Translations under genes and position numbers: made by a program
NCBI GenBank assembly: GCA_037951105.1
Contig: JBAMJV010002060.1
Location: 59,289-123,288, forward strand
Length of the DNA stretch: 64,000 bases
Reading direction: 5' to 3'
Origin: Echinarachnius parma
Lineage: Eukaryota; Echinodermata; Echinoidea; Clypeasteroida; Echinarachniidae
Shown: piece after piece, positions 1,664-60,519 of the stretch
Layout of the letters: each line of letters starts with the position of its first letter
Numbering within the stretch: position 1 is the first letter of the stretch
Notes under the pieces: generated by a model
Seen by the model: only the letters and a program-made list of their open reading frames with translations
Told to the model about the DNA's origin: nothing
Database searches by the model: none

Positions 1664-2026
1664 CCGTTAAAACCATTGAAGTCACTATGATCCGAAAATG
1701 AAGAAGTCTGGCACTATGTGGAAAATGAATCTTGATCCAGGCGGTGTTGCTCACAGATATTACATCACTGTGAATAATGCTCCCGCTAAATCTCGTTAGT
1801 CTGGTATCATGGTCCATGTCATGTCCATCGCCGATCTCCACGACCTCGTTGTGCTATTTGAAACAAAGATGTTTGAAGGAGAGACTGATTCTGTGGTCGA
1901 ACGACGTGTTGAAGATCATCGAAGTCCATTCTGAGATCGTCGTGCCAATATTTATCGTTGAATTATTGGACTCATCACTTTCGGTAGAAATAACCAGGCT
2001 GGATTTGTCGGGAACTGCGTAATAAT
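1664..2026 (-). pseudogene. Gene A, CUB3 exon with in-frame stop
   Basis: This is the third CUB-like exon of gene A. It has a GGCAG acceptor before 2026 and an ACGG|GTAAGG donor after 1664, giving 363 bp, phase 1-1, the same length as the CUB3 exons of genes B and C. The translation keeps the family landmarks: a FNTSFDHRISLSF strand, the single Cys in LCFK, EIGDG, then SDVISVSN and a final RLLHFRIIVTSM strand. The codon after CFK, where C and B have Asp, is TAG at 1854-1856. The exon is otherwise open and conserved. Either gene A is a recent pseudogene or the allele carries a nonsense change. The splice sites look intact, so decay is recent. Confidence 0.82.
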
Positions 2027-4739: not shown

Positions 4740-5135
4740 AAGTCATGTTCCAAGAGGTAGACCAATCATGAGGCCTGAAAGCACGCATCCGTATGTAAAA
4801 CCCTGCTCTTTCATCGCTCAGATCACTGCTGAAAATAATCTTGAATGACGACGCCTTCGGAGTAAGCTCAGCTTCCAAGCTGTCTGATTCGTGAACACCG
4901 CTGAACCTCTTCCACTTGTTACAGAAGTCAGCCCCGATGGAAAACTTGTCTACACCATCCCCAAAGAAGAGAACGTCATAACCAGATTCTGTGTCGAAGC
5001 GCTCTACATTGACCAGTACAGAGAGTCCGTCGGGAACTCGCATGTCCCATAGCTGGAAGGCATTGTTTGGATAATTGTTTGGATGATTTGGCGTATTAAT
5101 GGAGAAGTCATTGTCCTCCTCCAACAGTGTAGCAT
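4740..5135 (-). CDS. Gene A, CUB2 exon
   Basis: Second CUB domain exon of gene A, 396 bp, phase 1-1, open throughout. The acceptor TTTTTCAG lies before 5135 and the donor T|GTAAGTAC follows 4740. The domain runs from 'EEDNDFSINTPNHPNNYPNN' through 'LWDMRVPDGLSVLVNVERF', 'GYDVLFFGDGVDKF', 'FCNKWKRFSG' to 'SSFKIIFSSD' and 'GFYIRMRAF'. These match the CUB pattern of a P.YP..YP start, a W.I..P.G strand, a YD..F.DG loop and an SD...GF end. Most canonical CUB cysteines are missing. It is probably an extracellular ligand-binding module. It is intact although CUB3 of the same gene has a stop. Confidence 0.85.
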
Positions 5136-7108: not shown

Positions 7109-7256
7109 GACTTCAAGTGTCAAATATACCTCTAATTACCAAATACAGTATGCATTTTCATTAAAGGGGTGGTCACATATACGTTAATGGACGTAGGGAT
7201 CCGTAGGGTAGATTACCGTGGGTCAGGCATGGTGTAAGTACGTTAAACTATGTTAA

Positions 7257-8064
7257 GGGCCGGTCACATTTACGGTAGTGGACGTAGTTAAACGTAGTGG
7301 AGGCTAACCTAGTTGAACGTAGTTGAAGGTAGTTGAACGTACCGGCATCCGTACCGTACCCTAGTTGTCCGTGATGCTAACTTGGTATTAACTCGGGGGA
7401 GCCGTGATCTTCGATTTAATTTTTGAACATATTCAAAAGAGCGGTACGTTAAAAGCATCCGTAATGCTAACGTACTAAACCGAAGTCCAACGTAGTCTAA
7501 CGTAGTCTAACGAAGTCTAACGTAGTCTAACGTACTTCGTTACGTACTCAAACGTACCCTAGCGTACTCTAACGTACTTTACCGTGCACAAAACCAGCAT
7601 CAGCACTCTTGGTCCAGACATGTTTGAGCAGAAAAATTAGACAACTTTCACAGAACTGCTCTGTTTGAAAAACAAGCGCAAAATAACCGTATAACACCGC
7701 GGGCTGGCTGCATACTCCGTGCAGAGTTGCTAAATATACCGTAGTGACGTTCTTTAGCGTAGTCTAGCTTAGTATAGCGTAGTGGCTTCCGTAGTCTACC
7801 GTACTCACGCGTAGTAAGACGTACCACTCCGTACCTGTCCTTGAGTGAGCTCCACCCGCATTACCGAAGTCCAGCGTAGTCTAGCGTAGCTTATCGTACT
7901 TGAACGTACTTATCTGTACTCTTCTGTGTCTCATCACCGTAGATTAACGTAGTTCAACGTAGTGTAGCCTAGTTTAACGTACTTACACCACGTCTGACCC
8001 ACGTTAAATTACCCTACGGATCACTACGGATCACTACGTCCACTACCGTAAAAGTGACCGGCCC
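7257..8064. mobile_element. GGGCCGGTCAC TIR element, copy 1 (nested)
   Basis: Begins GGGCCGGTCACATTTACGGT and ends with the complementary ACCGTAAAAGTGACCGGCCC, 808 bp. The interior is composed of CGTAGTCTAACGTAG-like words. It sits inside the larger related element. Confidence 0.7.
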
Positions 8065-8085
8065 TTTAAACTCCATTGAACTACG

Positions 8086-8627
8086 TTAAAGGGGTAGTTT
8101 AGTTTTGGTAAGACTCAACTTTAGTAACCAAACATGAACATTAACATTATAAAACCAATAGTTTTAACTCCACCATGCTCGAAAGGTATACAAAATTACA
8201 AACGACTAAGAACAAGCCCGTTATCATTAAAAAAGAGCCATTGAAACTCAAGAGGGCGCTCTCTAAAAGTGCATTGGTTTCAACCATTTTTCATACAAAA
8301 TTATGCATGTGATGTTTTATTGAAATAATGATTAAATAGAGAGATCATCAACAACTATTTAAAAACGCTTTTGAAATTTTCTGAAAAAGTGCAAGCATTT
8401 TTTTATTTTTTTGAAAAATTCATCTAATTATTTGGGCCACAAATAATTATTAGTTCAGATATATTTATTGATATTTTAGCCATTTCTGGGCCGATTTTGA
8501 CCAAATAAAGTTTATTCTGCCATTAAAATTGCATGTTCTCGCAAATTCGACACTCAGTTTTTCATTACCTCACAAAAAAATTGTGATGTGCAGCGCCCTC
8601 TATACCAAAACTAAACTACCCCTTTAA
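8086..8627. mobile_element. TTAA-flanked MITE family 1, copy
   Basis: TTAAAGGGGTAGTTTAGTTT at the left and the inverted AAACTAAACTACCCCTTTAA at the right, 542 bp, with TTAA at both outer edges. 'cagcgccctctataccaaaac' lies just inside the right end. The copy at 53436-53967 is closely similar. TTAA target use is typical of piggyBac- or Kolobok-type elements, but no transposase is present to decide. Confidence 0.78.
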
Positions 8628-9549
8628 AAGGGACCACCACTAACATTTAATGTTTTGGTACCATGTTGTGATATAAAATAGATACCCAACATTTTGCAAA
8701 GGGTTGTGTAATTCATAAACAATGCATTTAACTACCACCACCGAACCAGTATTATTTCCTGGTTCCGTACGCGCCAAACATTTGCGAGTGTTTGGAGACA
8801 ATAGAATCCCGGAAGATTCGTTCGCTCTGGAGCAAGGTAGTCTTCGTACACGCAGACCCATAAACGCATGCTCTAGTCAGAATGGTGATGCGTTTTCCAA
8901 TTATATATTTTTTTCTGGAATTTTTTGTTCGAAACTTGTTGATGGAATGGACTACTAGATATTTAATTCTTTCATCCTTTCATTCATAAGAATATTATTT
9001 TTGGGTAGTGGTACCCTTTAAGGTACGGCCGAATTTGGGTGATGATGCGCAGAAGGGTACGGATAAGTACGTTCAAGTACGATAAAGTACGCTGATTCGG
9101 GTTCAGATCGCTCACCTACAGGTACGTCTGACTACGCTTGAGTACGGCAGACTACGCTAAAAAATGTCCAAATACGGTATATTTAGCAACTCCGCACGGA
9201 GTATTAAAGCTAGCCCGCGGCGTGGTACGTCCTTTGTGCGTTTGATTTTTCAAACTGTTACGTACCGTATAACGTAGCTATTAACGTAGTTGGACGTTCT
9301 GTAACTTAGCCTACCGTGATGGGGACGCGTATACTGACAACTGCAGTACAACGAACGTAGCATGATATAGCATGGCGTAGCATGACGTAGCACAGTCCCT
9401 ACTTGAACGTACTTACCTCTTCCAGGCCTTAAAAAAACTGGTCAGGGTAAAGTACGTTAGAGAACGTTTGAGTACGTTAAGAGGTACGTTAGACTACGTT
9501 AGACTTCACTTCAGTACGTCAGCATCACGAATGCAAGTTTGAGTCTAAT
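8628..9549. repeat. Remaining part of outer CGTAG-rich element
   Basis: After the TTAA element, about 370 bp of mostly unrelated sequence (8628-9010) precedes more GTACG/CTACG-rich sequence up to the second nested copy. No gene was recognised. Confidence 0.45.
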
Positions 9550-10359
9550 GGGCCGGTCATACTTACGGTAGGGGACGTAGTGATCCGTAGGGTAATTTAA
9601 TGTGGGTCAGACGTGGTGTAAGTACGTTAATATAGGTTAAACTAAGTTGAACAACGTGGAACTACGTTGAATAAGGTTAAGGTACGGTGGTTGGCCACGG
9701 AAGGGTACGGATAAGTACCGTTAAGTACATTAAACTACGCTATACTACGCTCTTGAGGGTACAGCTTGCTCACGGACAGGTACGGAGTGGTACGTCTGAC
9801 TACGCTTGAGTACGAGAGACTGCGGTAGCCACTACGCTGGACTACGCTAAAGAACGTCAAACTACGGTAAATAGCAACCCTGCACGGATATTTAACAGCC
9901 AGCCGGTGGTGTGGTACGGCCATTGTGCGCTTGTTTTTCAAAAGATAGCAGTTCTGTGAAATTTGTCTATTTTCTTACTCAAACATGTCTGGATCAAGAC
10001 TGTCGATGCTGATTTTGTACACGGTAAAGTACGTTAGATTACGCTAGAGTACAGTAAAGTACGTAACGAAGTACGTTAGACTACGCTAGACTTCGTTAGA
10101 CTACGTTAGACTACGTTAAACTTCGGTTTAGTACGTTATTACTACGGATGCCTTTAACGTACTGCTCTTTTGAACATGTTCAAACATTAAATCGAAGATC
10201 ACGGCTCTCCCGAGTTAATACCAAGTTAGCATCACGGACAACTACGGTACGATACGGATGTTAGTACGTTCAACTACCTTCAACTTCGTTCAATTACGAT
10301 CAACAACGTTAGCCACCACTACGTTCAACTACGTCCACTACCGCAAGTATGACTGGCCC
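9550..10359. mobile_element. GGGCCGGTCAT TIR element, copy 2 (nested)
   Basis: Begins GGGCCGGTCATACTTACGGT and ends GCAAGTATGACTGGCCC, 810 bp, almost the same length as the copy at 7257-8064. The interior has the same CGTTAGACTACG-like word composition in inverted orientation. Confidence 0.7.
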
Positions 10360-10729
10360 TTAACGTACCGCTGTTTTGAACATGTCCAAAAATATAATCC
10401 AAGATCTTGGCACCCCAATGTTCATACCAAGTTAGCATCACGGACAGCTACAGTACGGTACGGATGCCGGTTCGTTCAACTATCAATTACGTTAAACTAC
10501 GTTCGACTACGTTAGCCTCCACTAAGTTCAACTACGTCCATTAACGTATATGTGACCACCTATAGCGGTAGAGTATATTGAAACAAAAACGAAATGTATT
10601 ACAGTTTCAGTCTAAATTCTATTGAAAAAAAGCATGTTCTGTTAACTCGTGTTCGGACAGTGAATAAAGAACTGTACCTTGGATAGTTTTTGTAAGTTGT
10701 ATCACAGAACGTACAAACACAAAATACAA

Positions 10730-13928: not shown

Positions 13929-14013
13929 CTTGAAACTGGCATGATGATGCTTTGAAGAACGCGGCAAGCCACACGGCAACAAGTGGCAAGAATTTCAAAT
14001 TGATCTCGGCCAT
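13929..14013 (-). CDS. Gene A, start codon and signal peptide exon
   Basis: ATG at 14013 opens 28 codons, MAEINLKFLPLVAVWLAAFF followed by KASSCQFQ, ending at CAAG|GTGAGTT in phase 1. It has a short polar start, a hydrophobic core and a small-residue cleavage region, so it is a good secretory signal peptide. The exon has the same 85 coding bases in genes B and C, which supports this ATG. Confidence 0.82.
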
Positions 14014-19538: not shown

Positions 19539-21155
19539 TTATTCTTGAAAATCAAGATAGGTATGCTGGAGACCTGGCGAATCAGACTCATCGCCATCGA
19601 GGTGTATGTCTTGCTCGTGCTGATGATATTGGTCAGATTCTTCCCGCATATCAAGGTAGGTGTGCTGGAGGCCTTGTGTATCAGCTGTATTGCCATCGGG
19701 CAACTCGACGGTAGAGGAGTCGGCGTTGGTACTACGGATATCTGCATCTTGTCGATGGTTAGATGTTTGTTCTCGCATATCATGGTAGGTGTGTCGAAGC
19801 CCTTGTGAATCAGTCATATCGCAGTCGGGCAACTTAATGGAGGAGGAGTTGGTTTTGGTGCTACTGACGCGTTGGCCATGTTGTTGAATTTGAGGTGGTT
19901 GCTCTCGCATATCATGGTAGGTGTGCTGAAGGCCTTGTGTATCAGCCATATTGCCATCGGGCAACTCGACGGCGTTGGTACTACTGATATCTGCATCGTG
20001 TTGATGGTTAGATGTTTGTTCTCGCATATCATGGTAAGTGTGCCGGAGCCCTTGTGAATCAGTCATATCGCAGTCGGACAACTCGATGGTGGAGGAGTTG
20101 GTTTTGGTGCTACTGACTCGTTGGCAATGTTGTTGATTTTGAGGTGGTTGTTCTCGTATATCATGAAAGGTGTGACAAAGATTATCGGGAGCTGATATTT
20201 CTCCAGCTTTGCCCCTTGAAGAAAAAGAGTGGGTCTTTGCTCTGATATCATTACCTCTTTTTGGAACGAGATATCCTTCATCATCGAGTCCACTTCCAAC
20301 AAGACTAGACTCGCCATTTGTGTCATCCATCAGATGATTAGCTGATGGATCTCCGGTGGTAAAGTATGTGTGCTGGAGAGGTTCGGGTGAGGACAAATCT
20401 TCTTCGGATGACTCATGGGAACCGGATGAGGATGATTCACCATCTAATACAGGTGAGGTCACAATTGCAGCAGAGCTACCTTCGCTTGTATCCATTTCAT
20501 CTGGAGCTTCGTAAGCATGGTGTACTAGGTCGTCAGGTTCATCTTTGAGGCGACTGCTTCCGTCGATGATCTTACAAGGGACGAGCTTCACGGATGCCTT
20601 TGAAGACCTCTGAACCATTTTCGCAAGTTTTCTCTCTTCCTTTAGTGTAACGAGGTACCCTTCTTCGTCAAAGACTCTTACCGATTTCAAATCCGAAACT
20701 GGATTTTGAGGATTTGGCTCAAGACTTATCGTAGTCTCGATTGTTGGAGACCGCCCTCCAGACAGAGTCCAATCCGGCTGTTCTGCGTTATCTTCTTCTT
20801 GGTTTTTTGTGTCCATTGCTTCAGCTACTTTTCTTTGCATTACATTGGCAAGAGGATCAGGGACTGGTGCGTACCCATACTGCACTTTAGCTTCTTTTCC
20901 AAATGTGGATAACTCGACGGTGTTACAAAAGCTAGTGCCTATCGATTCATCCTTCGAAGACATCTCTGGTAGTCTGTCGAAGTCAGGAATAGCTTCATAG
21001 ATGTTGCAGGTTGATTTTGCGTAGTAGGTAAAATCTGGATTCATGTCGTTATCAGGTGGATTAGTCTGGATACCATCTCTAAAGGGACGTAAACCTACAC
21101 CTTCTCCGGATGCCAATGGGGCATCTGGTAAAGACCTCGTCACTTCGTAGTACTT
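19539..21155 (-). CDS. Gene B, cytoplasmic tail exon with repeated YxxM tyrosine motifs
   Basis: The last coding exon of gene B begins after a TTTTCAG acceptor with KYYEVTRSLPD and runs 538 residues to a stop. It is rich in Ser, Asp, Gln and His and is probably disordered. Tyrosine sites in order are YYEV, FTYYAKS, NIYEAIPD, YGYAPVPD, EGYLVTL, HAYEAPDEM, HTYFTT, EGYLVPKR, then a repeat block: HTFHDI (Tyr lost), three HTYHDMREQ, one HTYLDMREE and a terminal HTYLDFQE. YHDM and YLDM fit YxxM, the known p85 PI3-kinase SH2 motif, and 'xQGLxHTYHDMREQ' recurs about every 40-46 residues in two alternating versions. The inferred role is multivalent docking of PI3K and other SH2 proteins after phosphorylation. 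No kinase or other enzyme domain is present. Confidence 0.9.
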   Translation of the reverse strand, partial: KYYEVTRSLPDAPLASGEGVGLRPFRDGIQTNPPDNDMNPDFTYYAKSTCNIYEAIPDFDRLPEMSSKDESIGTSFCNTVELSTFGKEAKVQYGYAPVPDPLANVMQRKVAEAMDTKNQEEDNAEQPDWTLSGGRSPTIETTISLEPNPQNPVSDLKSVRVFDEEGYLVTLKEERKLAKMVQRSSKASVKLVPCKIIDGSSRLKDEPDDLVHHAYEAPDEMDTSEGSSAAIVTSPVLDGESSSSGSHESSEEDLSSPEPLQHTYFTTGDPSANHLMDDTNGESSLVGSGLDDEGYLVPKRGNDIRAKTHSFSSRGKAGEISAPDNLCHTFHDIREQPPQNQQHCQRVSSTKTNSSTIELSDCDMTDSQGLRHTYHDMREQTSNHQHDADISSTNAVELPDGNMADTQGLQHTYHDMREQPPQIQQHGQRVSSTKTNSSSIKLPDCDMTDSQGLRHTYHDMREQTSNHRQDADIRSTNADSSTVELPDGNTADTQGLQHTYLDMREESDQYHQHEQDIHLDGDESDSPGLQHTYLDFQE

Positions 21156-21470
21156 CTGAAAATGAGAAAATAACATATTTGTTTAAGCTTGTGCCTGCAG
21201 TGCTGCAAATGTATATATCAATGTTTTTTTTGTATTTAATTTAATTTGTTTTACTTGGCATGCCCGAAAGGTCGAATCAGTAAAATGAACTAGATCCTAG
21301 GAGACATGGAGAGAAATTATTATAAATATATTAAATTGATGTTACCCATTGGACAGACGTTATAAGGTTTAGTTATAAGGAACAGTATTATATATGTATT
21401 CTATACTGTAGTATGTCTAGATCGAATCACCTATTTAAGGATTTGTTACATAATTTAGTTAGTTACCCAC
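21156..21470. other. Gene B last intron
   Basis: Short phase-0 intron between the transmembrane and tail exons, about 315 bp. Nothing else seen. Confidence 0.6.
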
Positions 21471-21604
21471 CCTTTGATTGAAATCCTGTAGATTTCTTCT
21501 CCGCTTCAGATACGCCCATCGGATGAAGACTATAAGAAGTATGACTGTTGTCACTGAGAGCGCCGCAGTCGCGATTTGTGTAGTTAGTCCAACATTGGTT
21601 CTGG
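21471..21604 (-). CDS. Gene B, transmembrane exon
   Basis: 134 bp, phase 1 in and phase 0 out. The acceptor TTGTTCAG lies before 21604 and the donor AAAGG|GTGGGTAA follows 21471. It encodes ARTNVGLTTQ, a hydrophobic span IATAALSVTTVILLIVFI, then the basic stop-transfer RWAYLKRRR and NLQDFNQR. This gives a type I single-pass membrane orientation with CUB domains outside and the tyrosine tail inside. The gene C exon (52794-52927) has the same length and layout. Confidence 0.9.
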
Positions 21605-22054
21605 CTGAACAAATATGCATTTCAAAATTAAACAAACCTCGATGAATTGGTAGGCTATAAGTACAACTGTTATAAGTGTTAAGCCTTAACATGATTAAGA
21701 GGGCAAATGATAATAGAATCGAAAGAAGATACAAATTAACAAACTGCAGATACTTGTTACATTCCTGTGTGCCTTGCTGTTTATCCAAACAATGATATAA
21801 TTCGTTTTTGTTACTGACATTTTGCTTCTGATTTGACTGTTTAACCCGTTCTCTTCTAGATTTTACACCATTTTTCGTAGGAAAAGGAAAAATTAATGCG
21901 CTTTCCAACCGATTTTCCTAGTATTAAAAGAAATATCCGTGTAGGAATCCTCACACAGTTATTGCACCCATATTTCAATAACATTGACATCACTGTACGT
22001 AACATTGCAATGTTATATAGTTAATATTAACAGCGTGTCTATATGTATTCCTAC

Positions 22055-22249
22055 CTGCATAACCAGCTTCTGCCGACCTAGTTGTCCAAGCTTTTGTCTT
22101 GTGACTGATCATAGTGGCATCGAACTCATCCTTGAATCTTCTCCGGTGGTCAGTAGATGAGCTGATTTTGTATTGGTTTGAAGACGAAAGGGTTGTCAAG
22201 TTTGAGGCATCTGATTCAAACGTTGTTCTGGCAGTGGATACACGTTTGT
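22055..22249 (-). CDS. Gene B, Ser/Thr-rich stalk exon
   Basis: 195 bp, phase 1-1, between ATTTCAG and G|GTAGGAAT. It encodes about 65 residues starting DKRVSTARTTFESDASNLTT, rich in Ser and Thr with no recognised fold, just before the transmembrane exon. It is probably an O-glycosylated juxtamembrane spacer. The equivalent exon in gene C is one codon shorter and only moderately similar in sequence. Confidence 0.82.
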
Positions 22250-22900: not shown

Positions 22901-23245
22901 CTGCGGTAAAGCCGATCAAGAACCCGGATGCAGTGCCTTCACCGTCACTCATAAAAATAACCGTAAGAGACGAGCTGAATGATCTGAAATCCAAAGTTGC
23001 CTGCCTGTTGCCATAGTAACCACTTAGATGCTTCCATCCCAGTGAACTTATAGCGAAGCTTTCGACGTCTTCTCCAATATGGACAACATCTGCTCCCGGC
23101 TCCGTGTCGAATTTGAAGAACTGAATCTCAATACCGAAAGTTCCAGGAGCTCGAATATGCCAAATGGTGTAGGCATTGTTTGGATAACTCGCAGGAAAGT
23201 TGGTTGAGCGTTTGAACTTCTGTTGTCCAAGAGTAAGGGCCTCTT
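22901..23245 (-). CDS. Gene B, CUB4 exon
   Basis: 345 bp, phase 1-1, acceptor TTATACAG and donor GCAG|GTAAAA. The translation runs from EEALTLGQQKFKRSTNFP, 'ASYPNNAYTIWHIRAPG', 'IEIQFFKFDTEPGADVVHIG' and 'WKHLSGYYGNRQATLDF' to 'SSSLTVIFMSDGEGTASGF'. The SYPNN start, the W.I..P.G strand and the F.SDG...GF end are CUB features. No cysteines are present in the domain, unlike textbook CUB modules with two disulfides. It is the membrane-proximal CUB module, followed directly by the stalk exon. Confidence 0.87.
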
Positions 23246-28952: not shown

Positions 28953-29315
28953 CCGTTAAAATCATTGATGTTACTACCATCCGAACACGAAGAAGTCTGT
29001 TCCTAGCTGGGAAGTAAATCCTGATCCAGGCAGCGTTGCTAACAGTGATTACGTCACTAGGGAGGGTTCCCCCGCTAAATCTCGCCAGTCTGGTATCATT
29101 GTCCATGTCTGATCCATCACCGATCTCAAGGATCTCGCTATTATCTTTGAAACAAAGTTGTTCGAAGGAGAGGCTGATTCTGTGGTCGAACGACGTGTTG
29201 AAGATCAGCGAAGTCCATTCTGACATCGCTGTGCCAATAGGTCTCGTGGAATTCATTGTTTCACCCCTTTCGGTCGAAAAAAGAAGACTGGATTTCTCAG
29301 GAACAGAGTGATAAT
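28953..29315 (-). CDS. Gene B, CUB3 exon
   Basis: 363 bp, phase 1-1, open throughout. Acceptor TTTTCAG before 29315, donor ACGG|GTAAGGC after 28953. It encodes DYHSVPEKSSLLFSTERG, 'SEWTSLIFNTSFDHRISLSF', 'QLCFKDNSEILEIGDGSDMD', 'TRLARFSGGTLPSDVITVSN' and 'RNRLLRVRMVVTSM'. It is a CUB-like sandwich, recognised mainly by its EIGDG turn, the SDVI.VSNAAW strand and close paralogy. One cysteine. The gene A counterpart has a stop where this copy reads Asp-Asn. Confidence 0.86.
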
Positions 29316-29677: not shown

Positions 29678-30073
29678 GAGTTGTGTTCGAAGAAGTAGAC
29701 CTATTCTGAGGCCTGACAGCACGCATCCGTATGAAAAACCATCTATTTGTACCGCAACAATTACTGCTGAAAATGATCTTAAATGACGACGTCTCCGGAG
29801 TAAGTTCAGTTTCCAAGCTGTCCAGCTCGTGAACACCGCTAAACCTTTTCCACTTGTTACAGAAGTCACCGCCGATGGAAAACTTGTCTACACCATCCCC
29901 AAAGAAGAGAAAGTCATAACCAGCTTCTATGCTGAAGCGCTCTACAGTGACCAGTACAGAGAGTCCTTCGGGAACTCGTATGTCCCATAACTGGAAGGCA
30001 TTCCTTGGATAGCCGCTTGGGTAATTTGGCGTAATAATGGAAAAGTCGTCGTCCTCCTCCAGCAGTGTAGCAT
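29678..30073 (-). CDS. Gene B, CUB2 exon
   Basis: 396 bp, phase 1-1, open. Acceptor ACAG before 30073, donor CTC|GTGAGTA after 29678. It encodes DATLLEEDDDFSIITPNYPS, 'GYPRNAFQLWDIRVPEGLSV', 'ERFSIEAGYDFLFFGDGVDK', 'FCNKWKRFSG' and 'SSFKIIFSSNCCG'. This is the clearest CUB module of the set: the PNYPSGYP start, the W.I..P.G strand and the GYDFLFFGDG loop. The YD Asp is one of the usual CUB calcium ligands, but the cysteine normally next to it is replaced. It ends 'STSSNTTRE', with a possible N-glycosylation site. Confidence 0.88.
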
Positions 30074-30400: not shown

Positions 30401-30843
30401 ATGCCAGTAGTGGGAAACGCACCACACCCAAACAATTAAATGTACACTCTTATTACCAATCATGTGAAAGAATATATTTTTACTAATACGGGATGATACA
30501 AATTTGGCCTAGAAACCGCCTACTAATTGATATATTTGGTCAATTATAAAGCTATCTACTGTGGATTGATATCTCGCCGATGGTTGTATGTTGATATACA
30601 GCCTCGTGCGATGCGTGATAATCCTATAGCAAATGCGCACATGGTAATTCGCACGAGCGAATCGCTCGAACGAGCGTATCTATGTGGCCAGCGCAGACGG
30701 GCAAAACTGACGGGGAATTTAGGCTCAATGTCAGCGGCTTTCATAAACGTTTTAACTTATATTTCTACACTTAACGATACTAAGGTTCGGATTTTTCCAC
30801 ACACGCCCCTTTGTATGCTATTTCACCAATACTAATCAATTAA

Positions 30844-32440
30844 GGGCCGGTCACATTTCCAGTAGTGGACGTAGTTGAACGTAGTGGAGGCTAACGTTGT
30901 TGGTCATAGTTAAACGTAGTTGAAGGTAGTTGAACGTACCGGCATCCGTACCGTACCGTAGATGTCCGTGATGCTAACTTGGTATTAATACGGGGGAGCC
31001 GTGATCTTCGATTTAATATTTGATGGGCCGGTCATACTTACGGTAGTGGACGTAGTGATCCGTAGGATAATTAAATATGGGTCAAACGTGGTGTAAGTAC
31101 GTTAAACTAGGTTAAACTACGATAAAATACGTAAAGGTACGGTGATGAGCCACAGAAGAGTACAGATAAGTACGTTCAAGTACCATAAACTACGCTACAC
31201 TGCGGTAATGCGGGTGCAGCTCGAGCACGGACAGGTACGGAGTGGTACGTCTGACTACGCTTGAGTACGGTAGACTACGGAAGCAACTACACTAGACTAC
31301 GCTAGACTACGCTAAGCAACGTCAATACGGTATATTTATCAACTCCACAGGGGAGTATGCAGCCAGCCCGCGGTCTGGTACGGCCATTGTCCGCTCGTGA
31401 AATTTGTCTTATTTGTTTGCTTAAACATATCTGGATCAAGACTGTCGATGCTGGTTTTGTGCGCGGTAATGTACGTTAGAGTGCGCTAGCGTACATTTAA
31501 GTACGTAACGAAGTACGTTAGAATACGCTAGACTTCGTTAGACAACGTTAGACTACGTTGAACTTCGGTTTAGTACGTTATTACTACGGATGCCTTTAAC
31601 GTACCGCTCTTTTGAACATGACGTGTTCAAAAATTAAATCGAAGATCACGGCTCCCTCGAGTTAATACCAAGTTAGCATCACGGAGAACTACGGTACGAT
31701 ACGGATGCTAGTACGTTCAACTACCTTCAACTTCGTTCAACTACGATCAACAACGGTAGCCACCACTACGTTCAACTACGTCCACTACTGCAAGTATGAC
31801 CGGCCCTTGAACATGTTCAAAAGAGAGCTACGTTAAAGGCATCCGTAATGCTAACCTACTAAACCGAAGTATAACGTAGTCTAACGAAGTCTAACGTAGT
31901 CTAACGTATTTCGCTATGTACTCAAACGTATTTCGCTATGTACTCAAACGTACTCTAGCGCAATCTAACGTACTTTACCGTGCACAAACCCAGCATCGGC
32001 ACTCTTGATCCAGACATGTTTAAGCAAATAAATTAGACAATTTTCACAGAACTGCTCTGTTGGAAAAAGCGCACAATGGCCACACCGCGAGCTGGCTGCA
32101 TACTCCGTGAGGAGTTGCTAAATATACTGTATTGACGTTCTTTAGCGTAGTCTAGCGTAGTCTAGCGTAGTGGCTTCCGTAGTCTACCGTACTCAAGTGT
32201 ACTCAGACGTACCACTCAGTACCTGTCAGTGAGCGAGCTGCACCCGCATTATCGAAGTCTAACGTAGTCTAGCGTAGTTTACTGTACTTTAACGTACGTA
32301 TCTGTACTCTTCTGTGGCTCATCATTGTACCTTAACGTAGTTCACGTAGTTTAACCTAGTTTGACGTACTTACACCACGTCTGACCCACATTTAATAACC
32401 CTACGGATTACTACGTCCACTACGTAAATTTGACCGGCCC
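30844..32440. mobile_element. Nested GGGCCGGTCAC family element in gene B
   Basis: Starts GGGCCGGTCACATTT and ends AAATTTGACCGGCCC. A second element (31025-31806) is inserted within it, repeating the self-nesting at 7168-10560. The interior is dense in CGTAG/GTACG words. No coding capacity. Confidence 0.68.
31025..31806. mobile_element. GGGCCGGTCAT TIR element inside its relative
   Basis: 782 bp, ends GGGCCGGTCATACTTACGGT and GCAAGTATGACCGGCCC, close in length and sequence to 9550-10359. Confidence 0.7.
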
Positions 32441-32448
32441 TTAATTAA

Positions 32449-32730
32449 GGGCCGGTCATACTTACGGTAGAGGACGTAGTTGAACGTAGTGGAGGCTAAC
32501 GGAATTGAACGGAGTTGAACGTAGTTGAAGGTAGTTGAACGTACCGGCATCCGTACCGTACCGTAGTTGACCGTGATGCTAACTTGGTATTGACTCGGGG
32601 GAGCCGTAATCCTCGATTAAATTTGTGAACATGTTCAACAGAGCGGTACGTTAAAGGCATCCGTGATGCTTACCTACTAAACCGAAGTCTAACGTAGTCT
32701 AACGCAATATAACGTAGTCTAACATGCACA
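32449..32730. mobile_element. Truncated GGGCCGGTCAT element
   Basis: Starts GGGCCGGTCATACTTACGGT eight bases after the previous element ends and runs about 280 bp, ending where a MITE family 1 fragment (about 32740-32968) begins. Confidence 0.6.
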
Positions 32731-37270: not shown

Positions 37271-37355
37271 CTTGAAGTTGGCATGTTGATGTGTTGAAGA
37301 ATGTGGCCAGCCAGAGAAGAAAAAGTGGAAGGAATTTAAAATTTAACACGGCCAT
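37271..37355 (-). CDS. Gene B, start codon and signal peptide exon
   Basis: ATG at 37355 opens 28 codons, MAVLNFKFLPLFLLWLATFF then NTSTCQLQ, ending CAAG|GTGAGTA in phase 1. A strong hydrophobic core followed by a polar C-region marks a secretory signal. Same length and position as in genes A and C. Confidence 0.85.
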
Positions 37356-48903: not shown

Positions 48904-49160
48904 TTAAGATGGTGTATCTTGAAAATCAAGATAGGTATGCTGAAGACCTTGGAAAACAGACTCATCGTCATCATGAGGCATGTCTTGATCGTCCTGATAT
49001 AACTGTTCCCGCATATCATGGTAAGTGTGCTGAAGACCTTGTGACTCAGTCATACCGCCGTCGTGCAAGTCAACGACGGAAGGGTCGGTTTTAATGTCAC
49101 TGATATCTTGGTCATGTAGATTATTAGATGATTGTTCTCGCATATCATGGTAGATGTGCT
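48904..49160 (-). pseudogene. Gene C, detached 3' end of cytoplasmic tail exon
   Basis: In the frame of the tail this stretch encodes TYHDMREQSSNNLHDQDISD, then 'MTESQGLQHTYHDMREQLYQ' and 'VFQGLQHTYLDFQDTPS' with a stop at 48904. It holds the last tyrosine motifs, two YHDM and one YLDF. It is cut from the rest of the exon by the 1518-bp insertion at 49161-50678, so it is out of reach of normal translation unless the insertion is spliced out. The terminal HTYLDFQ matches the end of the gene B tail. Confidence 0.85.
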
Positions 49161-49832
49161 CTGCCGTCCCATGACAAAAGGAAGCAACTCTGAATTTATC
49201 AAAATCGACTTTTTTCTTGATTTGGGGTATTTTTTGTATGCTCTACATGATGGTGAATAAATTGAGGTCACATGACCCCTCATTTCCGAAATATAGATAT
49301 ATCAAAAGGAAGCAACTCTAAAGATTGCCTCATAAAACACTGACAAAAGGAAGCAACTCAATCAGCCAATCACCTATCAGCATGGAAGTGGCATGTGTGC
49401 ATTGATCTCCCAATCAGCCAATCAGAGCGCGCCTAAGTGCAGCTCACTTTTCTCCTTGAATGTCTGTCAACCACTACACCAGAATTGATACAGAAAATGC
49501 TGAAATTCGCTGATCTGTTTGCACATCTGAAGGAAACGTTAGTGTATTTTGACTGAAGTATATATATACATTTAAAATCCATTTCATTTATCAATCAAAA
49601 TGCAGACGGTGAATACAAAATATAACGTTTTCTTTTTTTTTCACAGCACAAGTTCTGATGCTATGTGTTTATTATTGTCCCACATGTAGACTTTTGTGTG
49701 GGAAATTTTGCAGAAAATGATTAACTTGATGAAATGTTGTTTTACCTGGCTTTGCCAATGACTCACACACAAACACAAACACACACACACATGCACAACC
49801 ATACACATACACACACATACAAACACACGCAT

Positions 49833-49875
<43 letters not shown>

Positions 49876-50678
49876 TATACGCACACATACAGACATACGC
49901 GCAAACAAACACACACACGCACAAACACACATACACACACACCCACAAGCAAACACACAGACACACCTACACACACACGCACTCACACACAGAAACACGC
50001 ACACGGCACAGCCACACACACGCACACACACACTTACAAACGCACATAACACACACGCACACACACACACACGTACGCACATACTCACACGCGCACACAC
50101 ACACACGTACGCACACACACACACGCATGCAAACACACAAATATATGCACACAGACATACATACGTGCAAACATACGCATATATACACACGCATACACAC
50201 ACAAACACGCACATATACACATACATGAGTAGATACACACTAACACATACACACACTGACACATACTCACATGCACTCACACACACGCATACATACACAT
50301 ATATTTACACATAAATATACACACAAACGTATATACACACATACACATGGATACACACACAAACACACACACGCACGTACTCACACAATACTGACTTCTT
50401 AGATTATCAAGAGTTGCTTCCTTTTGTCATTGGATGACGCGTGCAAATATTCAAGATATACTGTGACAAAAGGAAGTATGCTGCTTAATTTGCATAAAAC
50501 AATGATTTTACAAATCAAAATATATCAACCCGAAATGCCTTCTCTGAGTACATTATAAGACATGTCATACCTGGGAATTGGGATTTTATGTTTGAGAGGT
50601 CAGAAAGAAAAACATATTTTCTTCATTTACTAAGAAACTCATTCCACAGAGTTGCTTCCTTTTGTCATGGGACGGCAG
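49161..50678. mobile_element. 1518-bp DNA transposon inserted in gene C tail exon
   Basis: The terminal inverted repeats start CTGCCGTCCCATGACAAAAG and are identical over the first 32 bases. They are flanked by TGCT on both sides (49157-49160 and 50679-50682), a 4-bp target duplication. Removing the element and one TGCT restores the coding sequence seen in gene B. The word GACAAAAGGAAGCAACTC recurs subterminally (49172, about 49283, 49322; inverted near 50403 and 50648). The middle is a long (CA)n tract. No transposase, so it is non-autonomous. Perfect ends and duplication suggest a young insertion. Confidence 0.92.
49752..50390. repeat. Long (CA)n-type microsatellite within the transposon
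   Basis: About 640 bp of CA/CACG/TACA repeats. All Thr/His and Val/Cys frames across it (up to 208 aa) are repeat artefacts. Confidence 0.93.
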
Positions 50679-52498
50679 TGCTGAAGACCTTGTGTATCAG
50701 CCATATCGCCATCGTGCAAGTCAACGATGGACAAGCCGGTTTTGATGCCACTGATATCTTGGTCATGTAGATTATTAGATGATTGTTCTCTCATTTCATG
50801 GTAGGTGTGCTGAAGGCCTTGTGTATCAGCCATATCACCATCAGGCAACTCGGCAGTAGAGGAGTAGGCTTTGGTACTACTGATATCTGCGTCGTGTCGA
50901 TGGTGAGATCTTTGTTCTCGCATATCGTGGTAAGTGTGCCGAAGCCCTTGTGAATCAGTCATATCGCAGTCGGACAACTCGATGGTGGAGGAGTCGGGTT
51001 TGGTGCTACTGACGCGTTTGCCATGTTGTTGATTTTGAGGTGGTTGCTCTCGCATATCATGGTAGGTGTGCTGAAGGCCTTGTGTATCAGCCATTTCGCC
51101 AACGGGCAACTCGACGGTAGAGGAGTTGACTTTGGTACTACTGATATCTGCATCGTGTCGATGGTTAGAGGTTTGTTCTCGCATATCGTGGTAAGTGTGC
51201 CGACGCCCTTGTGAATCAGTCATATCGCAGTCGGACAACTCGATGGTGGAGGAGTTGGTTTTGGTGCTACTGACTCGTTGGCCATGTTGTTGATTTTGAG
51301 GTGGTTGTTCTCGCATATCATGATATGTGTGATAAAGAGTATCGGGAGCTGATATTTCTCCATCTTTGCCTCTTGGAGAAAAAGAGTGAGTCTTTGCTCT
51401 AATATCATTGTCTCTCTTTGGAACGAGATATCCTTCATCATCGATTCCACTTCCAACAAGACTGGGCTCGCCATTTGTGTCATCCGTCAGATGATTAGCT
51501 AATGGATATCTGGTGGTAAAGTATGTATGCTGGAGAGGTTCAGGTGAGGACAGGTCTTCTTCAGATGACTCATTTGAACCTGATGACGATGATTCATCAT
51601 CTAATACAGCTGATGTCACCATGAAAGTAGAGCTAGCTTCGCAACTAGCTAGGGTCCGACTCTTCGTATTCTTGAGACGAGTATTAGTGGTGTGAGGTCG
51701 GGGAATGGGAAGAGAATCATTATTTCCCTCACATCCATGATACGTGTGCCGAAGCGAGTCACTTGTAAACTCGACTGTACCATCATGATCGACAGACTTA
51801 GTAGTGAAGGAGGAAGAATTCCTTGTAAGGGCCTCCATTTCATCTGGAGCTTCGTAAGCATGGTGTACTAAGTCGTCATGTTCAGCTTTGTGGCGACCGC
51901 TTCCGTCGAGGATCTTACAAGGGACGAGCTTCACGGACGCCTTTGAAGACCTCTGGACCATTCCCGCAAGTTTTCTCTCCTCATTTAGTGTAACGAGGTA
52001 CCCTTCGTCGTCAAAGACTCTTACCGACTTCAAATCCGAAACTGGATTTTGAGGATTTTGCTCAAGACTTATCGTACTCTCAATTGTTGGAGACAGCCCT
52101 CCCAACAAAGGCCTGTCCGGCTGTTCTGCGTTATCTTCTTCTTGTTTATTCGTATCCATTGCTTCAGTTACTTTTCTTTGCACTTTATTGGCAAGAGGAT
52201 CAGGAACTGGTGCATAACCATACTGTACTTGTGCATCTTGTCCAAATGTGGATAAATTGACGGTGTTACTAAAACTAGTACCTATCGATTCATCCTTCCA
52301 AGACATCTCTGGTAGTCTGTCAAAATCGGGAATAGCTTCATAGATGTTGCAGGTTGATTTTGCGTAGTAGGTAAAATCTGGATCTCTTTCGTTACCGGGT
52401 GGGTTATTCTCGAGACCATCTCTAAACGGACGTTGGCCTACACCTTCTCCGGGTGTCGATGGGGTATCCGGTAGAGACCTTGTCACTTCGTAATACTT
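50679..52498 (-). CDS. Gene C, cytoplasmic tail exon with repeated YxxM motifs (truncated by transposon)
   Basis: Starts after a TTTGCAG acceptor with KYYEVTRSLPD. The first 606 or so residues match the gene B tail. The frame then enters the transposon, adds about a dozen foreign residues (ending 'TKGSNSVE') and stops at 50639. Tyrosine sites are YYEV, FTYYAKS, NIYEAIPD, YGYAPVPD, EGYLVTL, HAYEAPDEM, an extra HTYHGCEG, HTYFTT, EGYLVPKR, then four HTYHDMREQ and one HTYHEMREQ. Compared with B it has about 60 extra residues after 'YEAPDEM', and an intact HTYHDM where B has HTFHDI. Inferred role is SH2 docking, mainly PI3K. The shortened tail still keeps five YxxM sites. Confidence 0.9.
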
Positions 52499-52793: not shown

Positions 52794-52927
52794 CGTCTGA
52801 TTTAAGTCTGGTAAACTTCTTCTCCGCTTCATATACACCCATCGGACGAAGATCAGCAGGAGTATGACAGTTGTGACAGAGAGCGCCACAAGTATGATTC
52901 TGGTAGTTAGTCCAACATTGGATCTGG
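52794..52927 (-). CDS. Gene C, transmembrane exon
   Basis: 134 bp, phase 1 in, 0 out. It encodes ARSNVGLTTR, a hydrophobic span IILVALSVTTVILLLIFV, then RWVYMKRRRSLPDLNQT, ending ACG|GTGGGTAA. Single-pass type I membrane anchor with a basic stop-transfer sequence. Confidence 0.9.
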
Positions 52928-53183: not shown

Positions 53184-53375
53184 CTGCTTGACCAGCTTCC
53201 GCCGATTGGGTTGTCCTAGCGCGTGCCGTGTCACTGTTCCTATTGCCATCGAATTCGCCGTTGAATCTGTTCCGGGGGTCAACAGATGGGATGAAAAAGC
53301 CTTTTGTTGGAGACGAAAGAGATGTGAAATTCGAAACATCAGCGTCGGGCTCAAGCGTAGTCGTGACCTTGCCAA
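53184..53375 (-). CDS. Gene C, Ser/Thr-rich stalk exon
   Basis: 192 bp, phase 1-1, acceptor ATTTTAG, donor G|GTAGGAAT. It encodes VGKVTTTLEPDADVSNFTSL, 'SVDPRNRFNGEFDGN' and 'ARARTTQSAEAGQA'. It keeps the outline of the gene B stalk ('SNxTxLSS', 'RFxxEFD', 'TxSAEAG') but is clearly diverged, more so than the CUB exons. Juxtamembrane spacer, likely glycosylated. Confidence 0.8.
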
Positions 53376-54309: not shown

Positions 54310-54654
54310 CTGCCGTAAAGCCGATCAAGAAGCCGGATTTAGTTCCCTCGCCATCACTTGAGAAGATCACCGTAAGCGACGAACTGTATGACGTGAAATC
54401 CAATGTTGACAGTTCGTTGTCATAGTAACCGCTTAGATGTTTCCATCGAGTTGAACTTGTAGCGAAGCTTTTGACGTCTTGCCCTATATGGAGAATATCT
54501 GCTCCCGCCTCCGTGTTGAATTGGAAGAACTGAATCTCGATAACCAATGTTTCGGGAGCTCGAAGATGCCAAATGTTGTAGGCATTGCTTTGATAACTCG
54601 CAGGAAAGTTGGATGAACGTTTGAATTCCTGTGCTCCAAGAGTAAGTACTTGTT
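54310..54654 (-). CDS. Gene C, CUB4 exon
   Basis: 345 bp, phase 1-1, acceptor TATACAG, donor GCAG|GTAAAT. It encodes EQVLTLGAQEFKRSSNFP, 'ASYQSNAYNIWHLRAPE', 'IEIQFFQFNTEAGADILHIG' and 'WKHLSGYYDNELSTLDF' to 'FSSDGEGTKSGFLIGF'. Same CUB landmarks as gene B, with the YP of the 'SYPNN' motif changed to SYQSN. No cysteines. Confidence 0.87.
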
Positions 54655-55131: not shown

Positions 55132-55494
55132 CCGGAAACTCCATTGATGTTACAATCATCCTAACATGCAGAAGTCTGTTCCTACTTGGGAAGTGAATCC
55201 TGATCCAGGCAGCGTTGCTCACAGATATTACGTCACTGGGAGGAGTGCTCCCGCTAAATCTCGAAAGTCTGGTATCATGGTCCATGTCATGTCCATCGCC
55301 GATCTCCACGACCTCGCTGTGGTCCTTGAAACAAAGGTGCTTGAAGGAGAGGCTGATGATGTGATCGAGCGACGTGTTGAAGATCAGCATAGTCCATTCT
55401 GTGATGGTTGTGCCAAAGTGTATCGTTGAATTATCGGACTCATCACTTTCGGTAGAGATAACGAAGCTGGATTTCTGTGGAACAGTGTAATAAT
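55132..55494 (-). CDS. Gene C, CUB3 exon
   Basis: 363 bp, phase 1-1, open. It encodes DYYTVPQKSSFVISTESDES, 'TEWTMLIFNTSLDHIISLSF', 'HLCFKDHSEVVEIGDGHDMD', 'TRLSRFSGSTPPSDVISVSN' and 'RNRLLHVRMIVTSM'. Closest to the gene A copy (GDGHDMDHDTRL), but it reads Asp where A has TAG. Extracellular CUB-like module. Confidence 0.87.
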
Positions 55495-57884: not shown

Positions 57885-58280
57885 GACTCGTGTTCGAAGA
57901 GGTATAACTATTCTGAGGCCTAAACGCACGCATACGTATGAAAAATCCAGTACTCTGAGTGTAACCATTACTGCTGAAAATGATCTTGAATGACGGTGCT
58001 TCTGGAGTGAGCTTTGCTTCCAAGCTGTCTGGCTCGTGAACACCGCTGAAACTTTTCCACTTGTTACAGAAGTCACCGCCGATGGAAAACTTGTCTACTC
58101 CATCCCCAAAGAACAGAAAGTCTGTGTTCTGTTGTGTGCTGAAGCGATGTACATTGACAAACACAGACAGTCCATCGGGAATTCGGATGTCCCATAATTT
58201 AAAGGCATTATTCGGATAGTTGTTGGGGTGATTTGGCGTTTTAATAGAAAAGTCAACATTCTCTTCCAACAGGATAACAT
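57885..58280 (-). CDS. Gene C, CUB2 exon
   Basis: 396 bp, phase 1-1, open. Acceptor TTTACAG, donor C|GTGAGTATT. It encodes DVILLEENVDFSIKTPNHPN, 'NYPNNAFKLWDIRIPDGLSV', 'NTDFLFFGDGVDKFSIGGDF', 'CNKWKSFSG' and 'SSNGYTQSTGFFIRMRAF'. The YD of the CUB calcium loop in A and B is TD here. Extracellular module; ends in a possible N-glycosylation site (SNTS). Confidence 0.88.
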
Positions 58281-59588: not shown

Positions 59589-59905
59589 TGTATTAATACA
59601 GACCATCTTTTAGAGTATTTGCGGTGACGAAGCCTGTAACCAAGCAGCATTCGATATGGATATTACATCGCTTGGTAGAGTAGAATATCTGAACCGAACC
59701 AAGCGTGTGTTCTGCCCAGTAGTCAGACCATCTCCAATATCCAAATTCCAGTAGTCTAATTCAAATATTCTAAAGTTGAATTGTATTCTTCTGCCTACAG
59801 ATGTGTTGAAGGTCCACCATGGTGTAACATCTCCAGCCTGATAAGCGTTCCGCACGTCAGTGTCCGTCAGGGTAATGCTATCATCATCTCCGAGGAAATG
59901 GTGTT
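59589..59905 (-). CDS. Gene C, CUB1 exon (in-frame stop before donor)
   Basis: Acceptor TTCGTGCAG before 59905, phase 1. It encodes EHHFLGDDDSITLTDTDVRN, 'PWWTFNTSVGRRIQFNFRIF', 'NLDIGDGLTTGQNTRLVRFR' and 'LPSDVISISNAAWLQASSPQ' then IL and TAA at 59610-59612. A weak donor, ACA|GTAACT, follows the stop at 59589. The domain stops at the NAAW strand, as in A and B. The lower boundary is uncertain. Confidence 0.7.
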
Positions 59906-60434: not shown

Positions 60435-60519
60435 CTTGAAATTGGCATGTTGATTTGTTGAAGAATGTGGCCAGCCACAGAACAAAAAGTGGAAGTAATT
60501 TCAAATTTATCACGGCCAT
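60435..60519 (-). CDS. Gene C, start codon and signal peptide exon
   Basis: ATG at 60519, 28 codons MAVINLKLLPLFVLWLATFF then NKSTCQFQ, ending CAAG|GTGAGTA, phase 1. Classical signal peptide; same exon layout as A and B. Confidence 0.85.

Follow-up and report, generated by a model that had tools for sequence, protein, structure and literature searches.

Tandem CUB-domain genes with repeat-built, tyrosine-rich tails in Echinarachnius parma: a candidate family of PI3K-docking receptors

Three tandem CUB genes in a 64-kb window

The window, i.e., the whole stretch of 64,000 nucleotides that was analyzed, harbors three related genes, designated A, B, and C, which a self-comparison revealed to be arranged in tandem on the minus strand (Table 1). 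Based on predicted splicing, the exons of gene B join in frame and yield an open reading frame for a protein of 1044 amino acids (aa), which comprises a signal peptide, three CUB exons, a stalk, one transmembrane (TM) span, and a long tail, in this order. For gene A, the open frame spans 1124 aa and ends with residues contributed by an inserted element. The exon borders of genes A and B are of the GT-AG type and have matching phases, i.e., phase 1 for the domain exons and phase 0 for the junction of TM and tail. A further, CUB1-like exon lies between the signal peptide exon and CUB2. In A, B, and C alike its reading frame is interrupted at nearly the same position, and therefore it was omitted from the gene models.

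Table 1. Features of the window (coordinates refer to the 64,000-nucleotide stretch)
Feature	Position	Strand	Basis
Gene C, CUB3 exon, in-frame TAG	1664..2026	-	
Gene C, CUB2 exon	4740..5135	-	Pfam CUB 2.8e-9
Gene C, signal-peptide exon	13929..14013	-	
Gene B, tail exon, 538 aa + TAA, 17 Tyr, 4 YxxM	19539..21155	-	ORF, splice acceptor, Tyr list
Gene B, array of HTYxDM repeats, each about 33-44 aa	19539..20174	-	Unit listing; TRF periods 132 and 249 bp
Gene B, TM exon, phase 1 to 0, GTGGGT ... TTTCAG	21471..21604	-	GT-AG, conservation with A, hydropathy peak 2.31
Gene B, stalk exon	22055..22249	-	A-B dN/dS 0.77
Gene B, CUB4 exon	22901..23245	-	Pfam CUB 1.8e-12 on containing ORF; borders
Gene B, CUB3 exon	28953..29315	-	Pfam CUB 8.1e-4, 20.1 bits, slightly below cut-off 21.4; borders
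Gene B, CUB2 exon	29678..30073	-	Pfam CUB 1.1e-7; borders
Gene B, signal-peptide exon, MAVLNFKFLPLFLLWLATFFNTSTCQLQ	37271..37355	-	Exon comparison, borders
Gene A, remainder of tail past element: HIYHDM, HTYHDM, HTYLDF, stop	48904..49160	-	
1518-bp element in gene A tail	49161..50678	-	Perfect inverted repeats of 31 bp at its ends; flanked by AGCA on either side
Gene A, tail exon, ending at premature stop within element, five YxxM	50639..52498	-	
Gene A, TM exon	52794..52927	-	Borders, hydropathy
Gene A, stalk exon	53184..53375	-	
Gene A, CUB4 exon	54310..54654	-	Pfam CUB 2e-11
Gene A, CUB3 exon	55132..55494	-	Pfam CUB 7.4e-5, 23.5 bits, above cut-off
Gene A, CUB2 exon	57885..58280	-	Pfam CUB 2.8e-7
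Gene A, CUB1-like relic exon; stop position similar in A, B, and C	59611..59905	-	
Gene A, signal-peptide exon	60435..60519	-	

An earlier note on this DNA had described a receptor gene with a CUB ectodomain, a single TM span, and a tail of 538 residues encoded by one long exon. When ten ORFs were compared with the Pfam CUB model (cut-off 21.4 bits), scores above the cut-off were obtained for CUB2 of all three genes, for CUB4 of A and B, and for CUB3 of A. Together with profile matches to CUB proteins of solved structure, this bore out the CUB ectodomain. The predicted structure of CUB3 was weak (pLDDT 58), and its top PDB matches included CUB proteins, none of them at E≤0.001. Besides the signal peptide, the hydropathy analysis revealed one hydrophobic peak each in A and B, and a single span in gene B was supported by this one hydrophobic stretch and a splice-compatible TM exon (21471-21604). 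The tail exon also agreed with the claim: the minus-strand frame opens at the splice acceptor (21155), closes with a TAA (19539), and encodes exactly 538 aa.

No known domain was found in the long tail. A Pfam kinase model was not matched at E≤1 by the tails of A and B or by the ORF with the TM exon of B, and the tail exon is the last exon of the gene, so the kinase domain that defines receptor tyrosine kinases is lacking. A comparison of the tail with the PDB returned a single chain, 8fjf (H10), at an E-value of 0.97, and relatives of the tail were not found among the viral contigs searched. The whole window contained no Rfam match at the gathering score and no tRNA.

The tail of gene B contains four YxxM motifs at tail residues 374, 413, 457, and 500, three of them HTYHDM and one HTYLDM, exactly as many HTY(H/L)DM sites as the earlier note had listed. 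Their spacing had been given as about 40-46 residues; the measured distances are 39, 44, and 43 residues. The additional sites YYEV, NIYEAI, YAPV, EGYLVP, and AYEAP were all recovered, the fourth one also in the form EGYLVT. Overlooked had been the degenerate unit HTFHDI, with which the repeats begin, the end unit HTYLDF, with which they close, as well as gene A, the partial gene C, and the genome-wide family described below. In residue-shuffled versions of the gene B tail 0.45 YxxM motifs are expected on average, and the observed number of four equals the maximum of 5000 shuffles; the five motifs of gene A exceed all 5000 shuffles (largest value 4). With respect to these numbers, the YxxM copies are duplication products and hence not independent of each other. 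For the wider pattern Yxx[MVILPF], the part of the gene B tail in front of the repeats showed no excess over shuffles (5 versus 3.1, p 0.18).

In this assembly, gene A terminates within the inserted element, and thereby five YxxM motifs are kept, while HIYHDM, HTYHDM, and HTYLDF are lost. Without the element the frame would read ...QGLQHIYHDMREQ... and continue to HTYLDF and a stop codon. The element, which was inserted into coding sequence, contains internal copies of the motif at its ends and a long stretch rich in GT.

The tail of gene C is probably located just left of the window, at C2059:52567-54342 (locus L019), where a tail is adjoined by CUB4, stalk, and TM exons. Two further kinds of repeated sequence were observed. 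The segments 689-1358 and 40715-41379 (670 bp) are 95% identical at a distance of 40 kb and are thus closer to each other than the surrounding gene copies, and two spacers, 7161-10557 and 30838-32723, have a complex of direct and inverted repeats in common.

Long-tailed and short-tailed loci in the genome

The mitochondrial COX1 gene of the genome contains 14 TGA, 18 ATA, and 4 AGA codons, and one AAA codon at a position that is Asn in animals (MNNMSFW). On the basis of this one informative AAA, the codon usage agrees with the echinoderm code, although it would also be compatible with a hemichordate. The genome of 1.2 Gb (14,790 contigs) was searched for relatives of the tail. At least 64 separate tail loci were found on 32 contigs, with up to 10 per contig (70 of 586 candidates scored), a count that may include both haplotypes of some genes; p85 was also found on two contigs. 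The earlier note had dealt with one receptor gene. Its architecture of CUB domains, TM span, and tail was supported by the sequence, and the gene turned out to belong to a large family. Two of the 64 loci are A and B themselves, 42 were fetched, and 20 remained unfetched. Six fetched loci had no recognized start and were skipped (L023, L025, L030, L037, L038, L041), so that 36 tails plus those of A and B, i.e., 38 tails, were available. The conservation alignment comprised 27 of these, and 35 were used for counting the repeat units (HT-units), leaving out the near copies L032, L033, and L046.

In 35 of the 42 fetched loci a TM exon adjoins the tail; that of L050 contains a stop codon, and several family copies are truncated or have stops. 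Of the 64 tails, 50 are preceded on their own strand by a CUB4 exon at a distance of no more than 30 kb (median 2.8 kb). No upstream CUB4 exon was listed for the other 14, and one tail had a CUB4 exon on the opposite strand within 30 kb. This pairing was based on the 118 of 151 CUB4 matches that had an identity of at least 51%, and 69 of the 118 had no listed long tail. Such exons were numerous on the contigs C4547, C3589, C9897, and C8089, and some of them were short-tailed.

One locus, L014, was very similar to gene B and could represent either an allele or a recent duplicate of it. The identity is 97.7-99.2% over the intron, the stalk side, and the beginning of the tail, whereas the repeats and the 3′ side are 92.3% identical. 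As read from the alignment gaps, L014 lacks about 250 bp that contain the TM exon (window positions 21457-21706), and it has a cassette of 62 codons with HTYHGC that is absent from gene B. A direct joining of stalk and tail in L014 would disrupt the reading frame.

Of the CUB4 loci for which no long tail was listed, four were sampled (L055, L056, L057, and L058). In L057 and L058, a tail of about 100 aa reads directly on from the TM exon and contains YMPM or YLPM, then YLFP or YMFP, and then YEVP or YEAP. Its YxxM motif is located in the linker, a region that contains no tyrosine in any of the 34 long tails (out of 38) that were parsed. The short tail of L055 is degenerate and devoid of YxxM, and no tail was seen at L056 within a stretch that reached about 400 bases beyond the TM exon. 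A search with the L058 ORF yielded at least 31 near-full-length short-tail loci, 23 of them without stops (150 of 323 candidates scored, counted by hand). An organization as paired receptors, which have a common ectodomain and opposite tails, was checked at these four loci and set aside: two of them have short tails with YxxM, one is degenerate, and the fourth showed no tail in the stretch covered.

The sequence of the inter-SH2 region of p85 is also present in the genome. The matches are located at C14340:21211-23279 and C2816:10532-13420 (L052, L053), and at both loci several tandem partial matches to one stretch of the profile were observed, as if exons had been duplicated.

Motif content and selection in the tails

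The 38 tails have lengths of 450-1227 aa and contain 12-39 tyrosines and 2-7 YxxM motifs each. YxxM, YxxP, and Yxx[ILV] were present in every one of them, and YxN in four. Sites of at least three classes thus occur in the tails, the putative PI3K-type sites being one class. ITAM and NPxY were found in none of the 38 tails, ITIM in two, and ITSM in one; judged by the generally known consensus motifs, the tails are therefore not those of ITAM/ITIM immunoreceptors. The longest tails repeat, in addition to the HTYHDM units, a whole cassette with YYAK, YETI, YAPV, YLVP, YEAP, and HTYHGC.

A total of 292 HT-units was counted in 35 of the 38 tails, including 140 copies of HTYHDM, 46 of HTYHGC, 29 of HTYFTT, and 21 of HTYLDF. 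The threonine in front of the tyrosine is encoded by all four ACN codons. The constant HTY core of HTYHGC, HTYFTT, and HTYLDF, which is followed by very different residues at +1 to +3, and the histidine at +1 would fit a general tyrosine scaffold, in which HTYHDM is bound by an SH2 or PTB protein other than PI3K and the match to YxxM is formal only. However, methionine at +3 is the commonest ending of the units (160 of 292), at least two YxxM motifs have been kept in each of the 38 tails, and two short tails have YMPM or YLPM at a different site. Such a scaffold is regarded as an unlikely, albeit serious, alternative. Histidine occupies position +1 in 211 of the 292 units and position -2 in all of them, the latter being part of the search definition, and thus HTYH could also be viewed as a histidine repeat that binds metal or senses pH and is not a phosphotyrosine site. 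But the histidine at +1 is replaced by leucine or phenylalanine in whole classes of units (HTYLDF, HTYFTT) that retain the tyrosine, and EGYLVP, NIYEAI, and GYAPV of the same tail do not have the histidine pair, so that this possibility appears very remote.

To characterize the selection on the genes, A and B were compared exon by exon. The dN/dS values were 0.29 for CUB2, 0.38 for CUB3, 0.34 for CUB4, 0.77 for the stalk, 0.49 for the TM exon, and 0.44 for the tail; the value of 1.76 for the signal peptide rests on seven changes. In the part of the tail in front of the repeats, dN/dS was 0.087 within three codons of a tyrosine versus 0.424 elsewhere, and none of the 43 residues within ±2 of the 11 tyrosines differed between A and B, compared with 58 of 284 residues outside. 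When the mask was rolled along the sequence, only 3, 1, 1, and 2 of 326 rolls matched this contrast for windows of ±1, ±2, ±3, and ±4, respectively. In the alignment of 27 tails, nine tyrosine columns had an average conservation of 0.916 versus 0.80 for all columns; in one tyrosine column, 16 of 26 tails have Y and 10 have D. For windows of ±1, ±2, and ±3 around tyrosines the family-wide dN/dS values were 0.357, 0.362, and 0.355 versus 0.604, 0.617, and 0.638 elsewhere, and 17, 10, and 7 of 220 rolls were as low. The tyrosine codons alone did not exhibit a reduced value in the 27 tails (0.64 versus 0.58; 119 of 220 rolls as low). These comparisons suggest that the surroundings of the pre-repeat tyrosines are under stronger purifying selection than the other tail sequence, and that this effect is weaker across the wider family.

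The identity between A and B is 0.52-0.65 for the intron and climbs to 0.81-0.95 for the tail. The synonymous divergence is lower in the tail, at about 75 of 365 sites, than in the pooled exons for CUB, stalk, and TM, at 118 of 326 (Fisher p 6e-6). Because of this lower synonymous divergence and the rise in identity from the intron, the tail appears to have been homogenized between the genes, probably by gene conversion.

The repeats might be a mostly neutral minisatellite in a disordered tail, and the abundance of the motifs would then be due to duplication and not to function. The number of repeats indeed differs from gene to gene, the insertion has cost gene A its end, L012 and L013 stop immediately after an HTYHD unit, and dN/dS was 0.50 in the repeats of A and B and about 0.6 in the family away from the tyrosines. 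In contrast, histidine and threonine are invariant in the protein in the 16 full-length units of A and B, while their codons vary silently. Furthermore, the constraint around tyrosines is also found in the pre-repeat tail, and HTYL[DE]F lies within the last 22 residues in 31 of the 38 tails. A mainly neutral origin of the motif abundance is thus considered to be improbable.

Proposed function and relation to known systems

Taken together, the sequence features make it probable, though by no means certain, that A, B, and C belong to an expanded and partly tandem family of kinase-less, single-pass CUB receptors, the multivalent SH2-docking tails of which recruit PI3K directly. Phosphorylated YxxM is bound by the SH2 domains of p85 (PMC10839044, PMC3248195). 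Outside the cell, the CUB domains would engage a ligand or a cell surface, and upon ligand clustering a cytoplasmic tyrosine kinase, most likely of the Src type, would phosphorylate the long tail. The HTYxDM array could then accommodate several adjacent p85-p110 PI3K heterodimers. YxxP is a Crk/Nck-type SH2 site and Yxx[I/V] a site of other SH2 proteins, and thus YLVP and YEAP may recruit Crk/Nck-like proteins, and YEAI and YAPV other SH2 proteins. In-frame gain of sites by duplication and their loss would alter the docking valency between genes. Histidine at +1 is unusual for a putative p85 site, and the conservation of the sequence could also come from gene conversion.

ErbB3/HER3, IRS, and CD19 likewise have several YxxM motifs on a chain that lacks an active kinase; according to PMC3248195, IRS proteins carry a number of YxxM motifs, and HER3 is a pseudokinase receptor with multiple YxxM sites. 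Unlike in these proteins, the sites of the CUB family are near-identical tandem units, a kinase or pseudokinase domain is absent, and YxxM is mixed with YxxP and Yxx[I/V], the docking being putative. CDCP1 resembles the family in having a CUB ectodomain and one TM span and in being non-catalytic (PMC5342505), and it is a substrate of Src-family kinases (PMC3507883). The Pfam model CDCP1_CUB_6 reached 17.6 bits, below its cut-off of 27, in one of ten ORFs, and membership in the CDCP1 group was therefore rejected. In contrast to CDCP1, the tails of the family are built from repeats. The tail of CDCP1 is also far shorter. A characteristic of CDCP1 is a tail tyrosine that recruits PKC-delta when phosphorylated by Src. 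The sea urchin SRCR genes are another large lineage-specific receptor expansion in an echinoderm (PMC10855680); unlike these, the present family has a CUB ectodomain, and an immune role of it would be hypothetical.

A published description of such a CUB/YxxM-tail family was not found in the literature searched, from which subscription papers were largely absent, and the family could already be annotated elsewhere, as the sequence comparison covered this genome. The non-catalytic, tyrosine-docking receptor is the known part, and the repeat-built multivalency and the large CUB family are the new parts. Most of the PI3K-docking immune receptors described so far rely on borrowed adaptors or have a single site or a small number of them. 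The earlier note had suggested phagocytosis, immunity, or adhesion as purposes of the PI3K recruitment, all of which are putative roles. With respect to function, a phagocytic role of the receptors is plausible by analogy, because the p85-recruiting piece of CD19 promotes engulfment: on its own it led to some whole-cell engulfment by macrophages, and when added to an FcR tail it raised engulfment (PMC6008046).

It is tempting to speculate further that the loci form an echinoderm superfamily of about a hundred CUB receptors, which may serve in recognition and recruit PI3K and Crk/Nck-type proteins directly and multivalently. The loci found were 64 with long tails and 31 with short tails, numbers that include broken copies and may include both haplotypes of some genes. 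Their valency would be tuned by in-frame changes in copy number and by the exchange of tail exons between paralogues, and the short-tailed and long-tailed branches would have gained their PI3K sites separately. This wider scenario is tentative, and parts of it may well have to be revised. A single exon of these genes encodes 2-7 YxxM motifs and as many as 39 tyrosines, and the number of sites varies naturally between relatives. The differences from gene to gene thus represent a ready-made series for relating docking valency to signal strength, and the family may represent a recognition system of an animal that has no antibodies.
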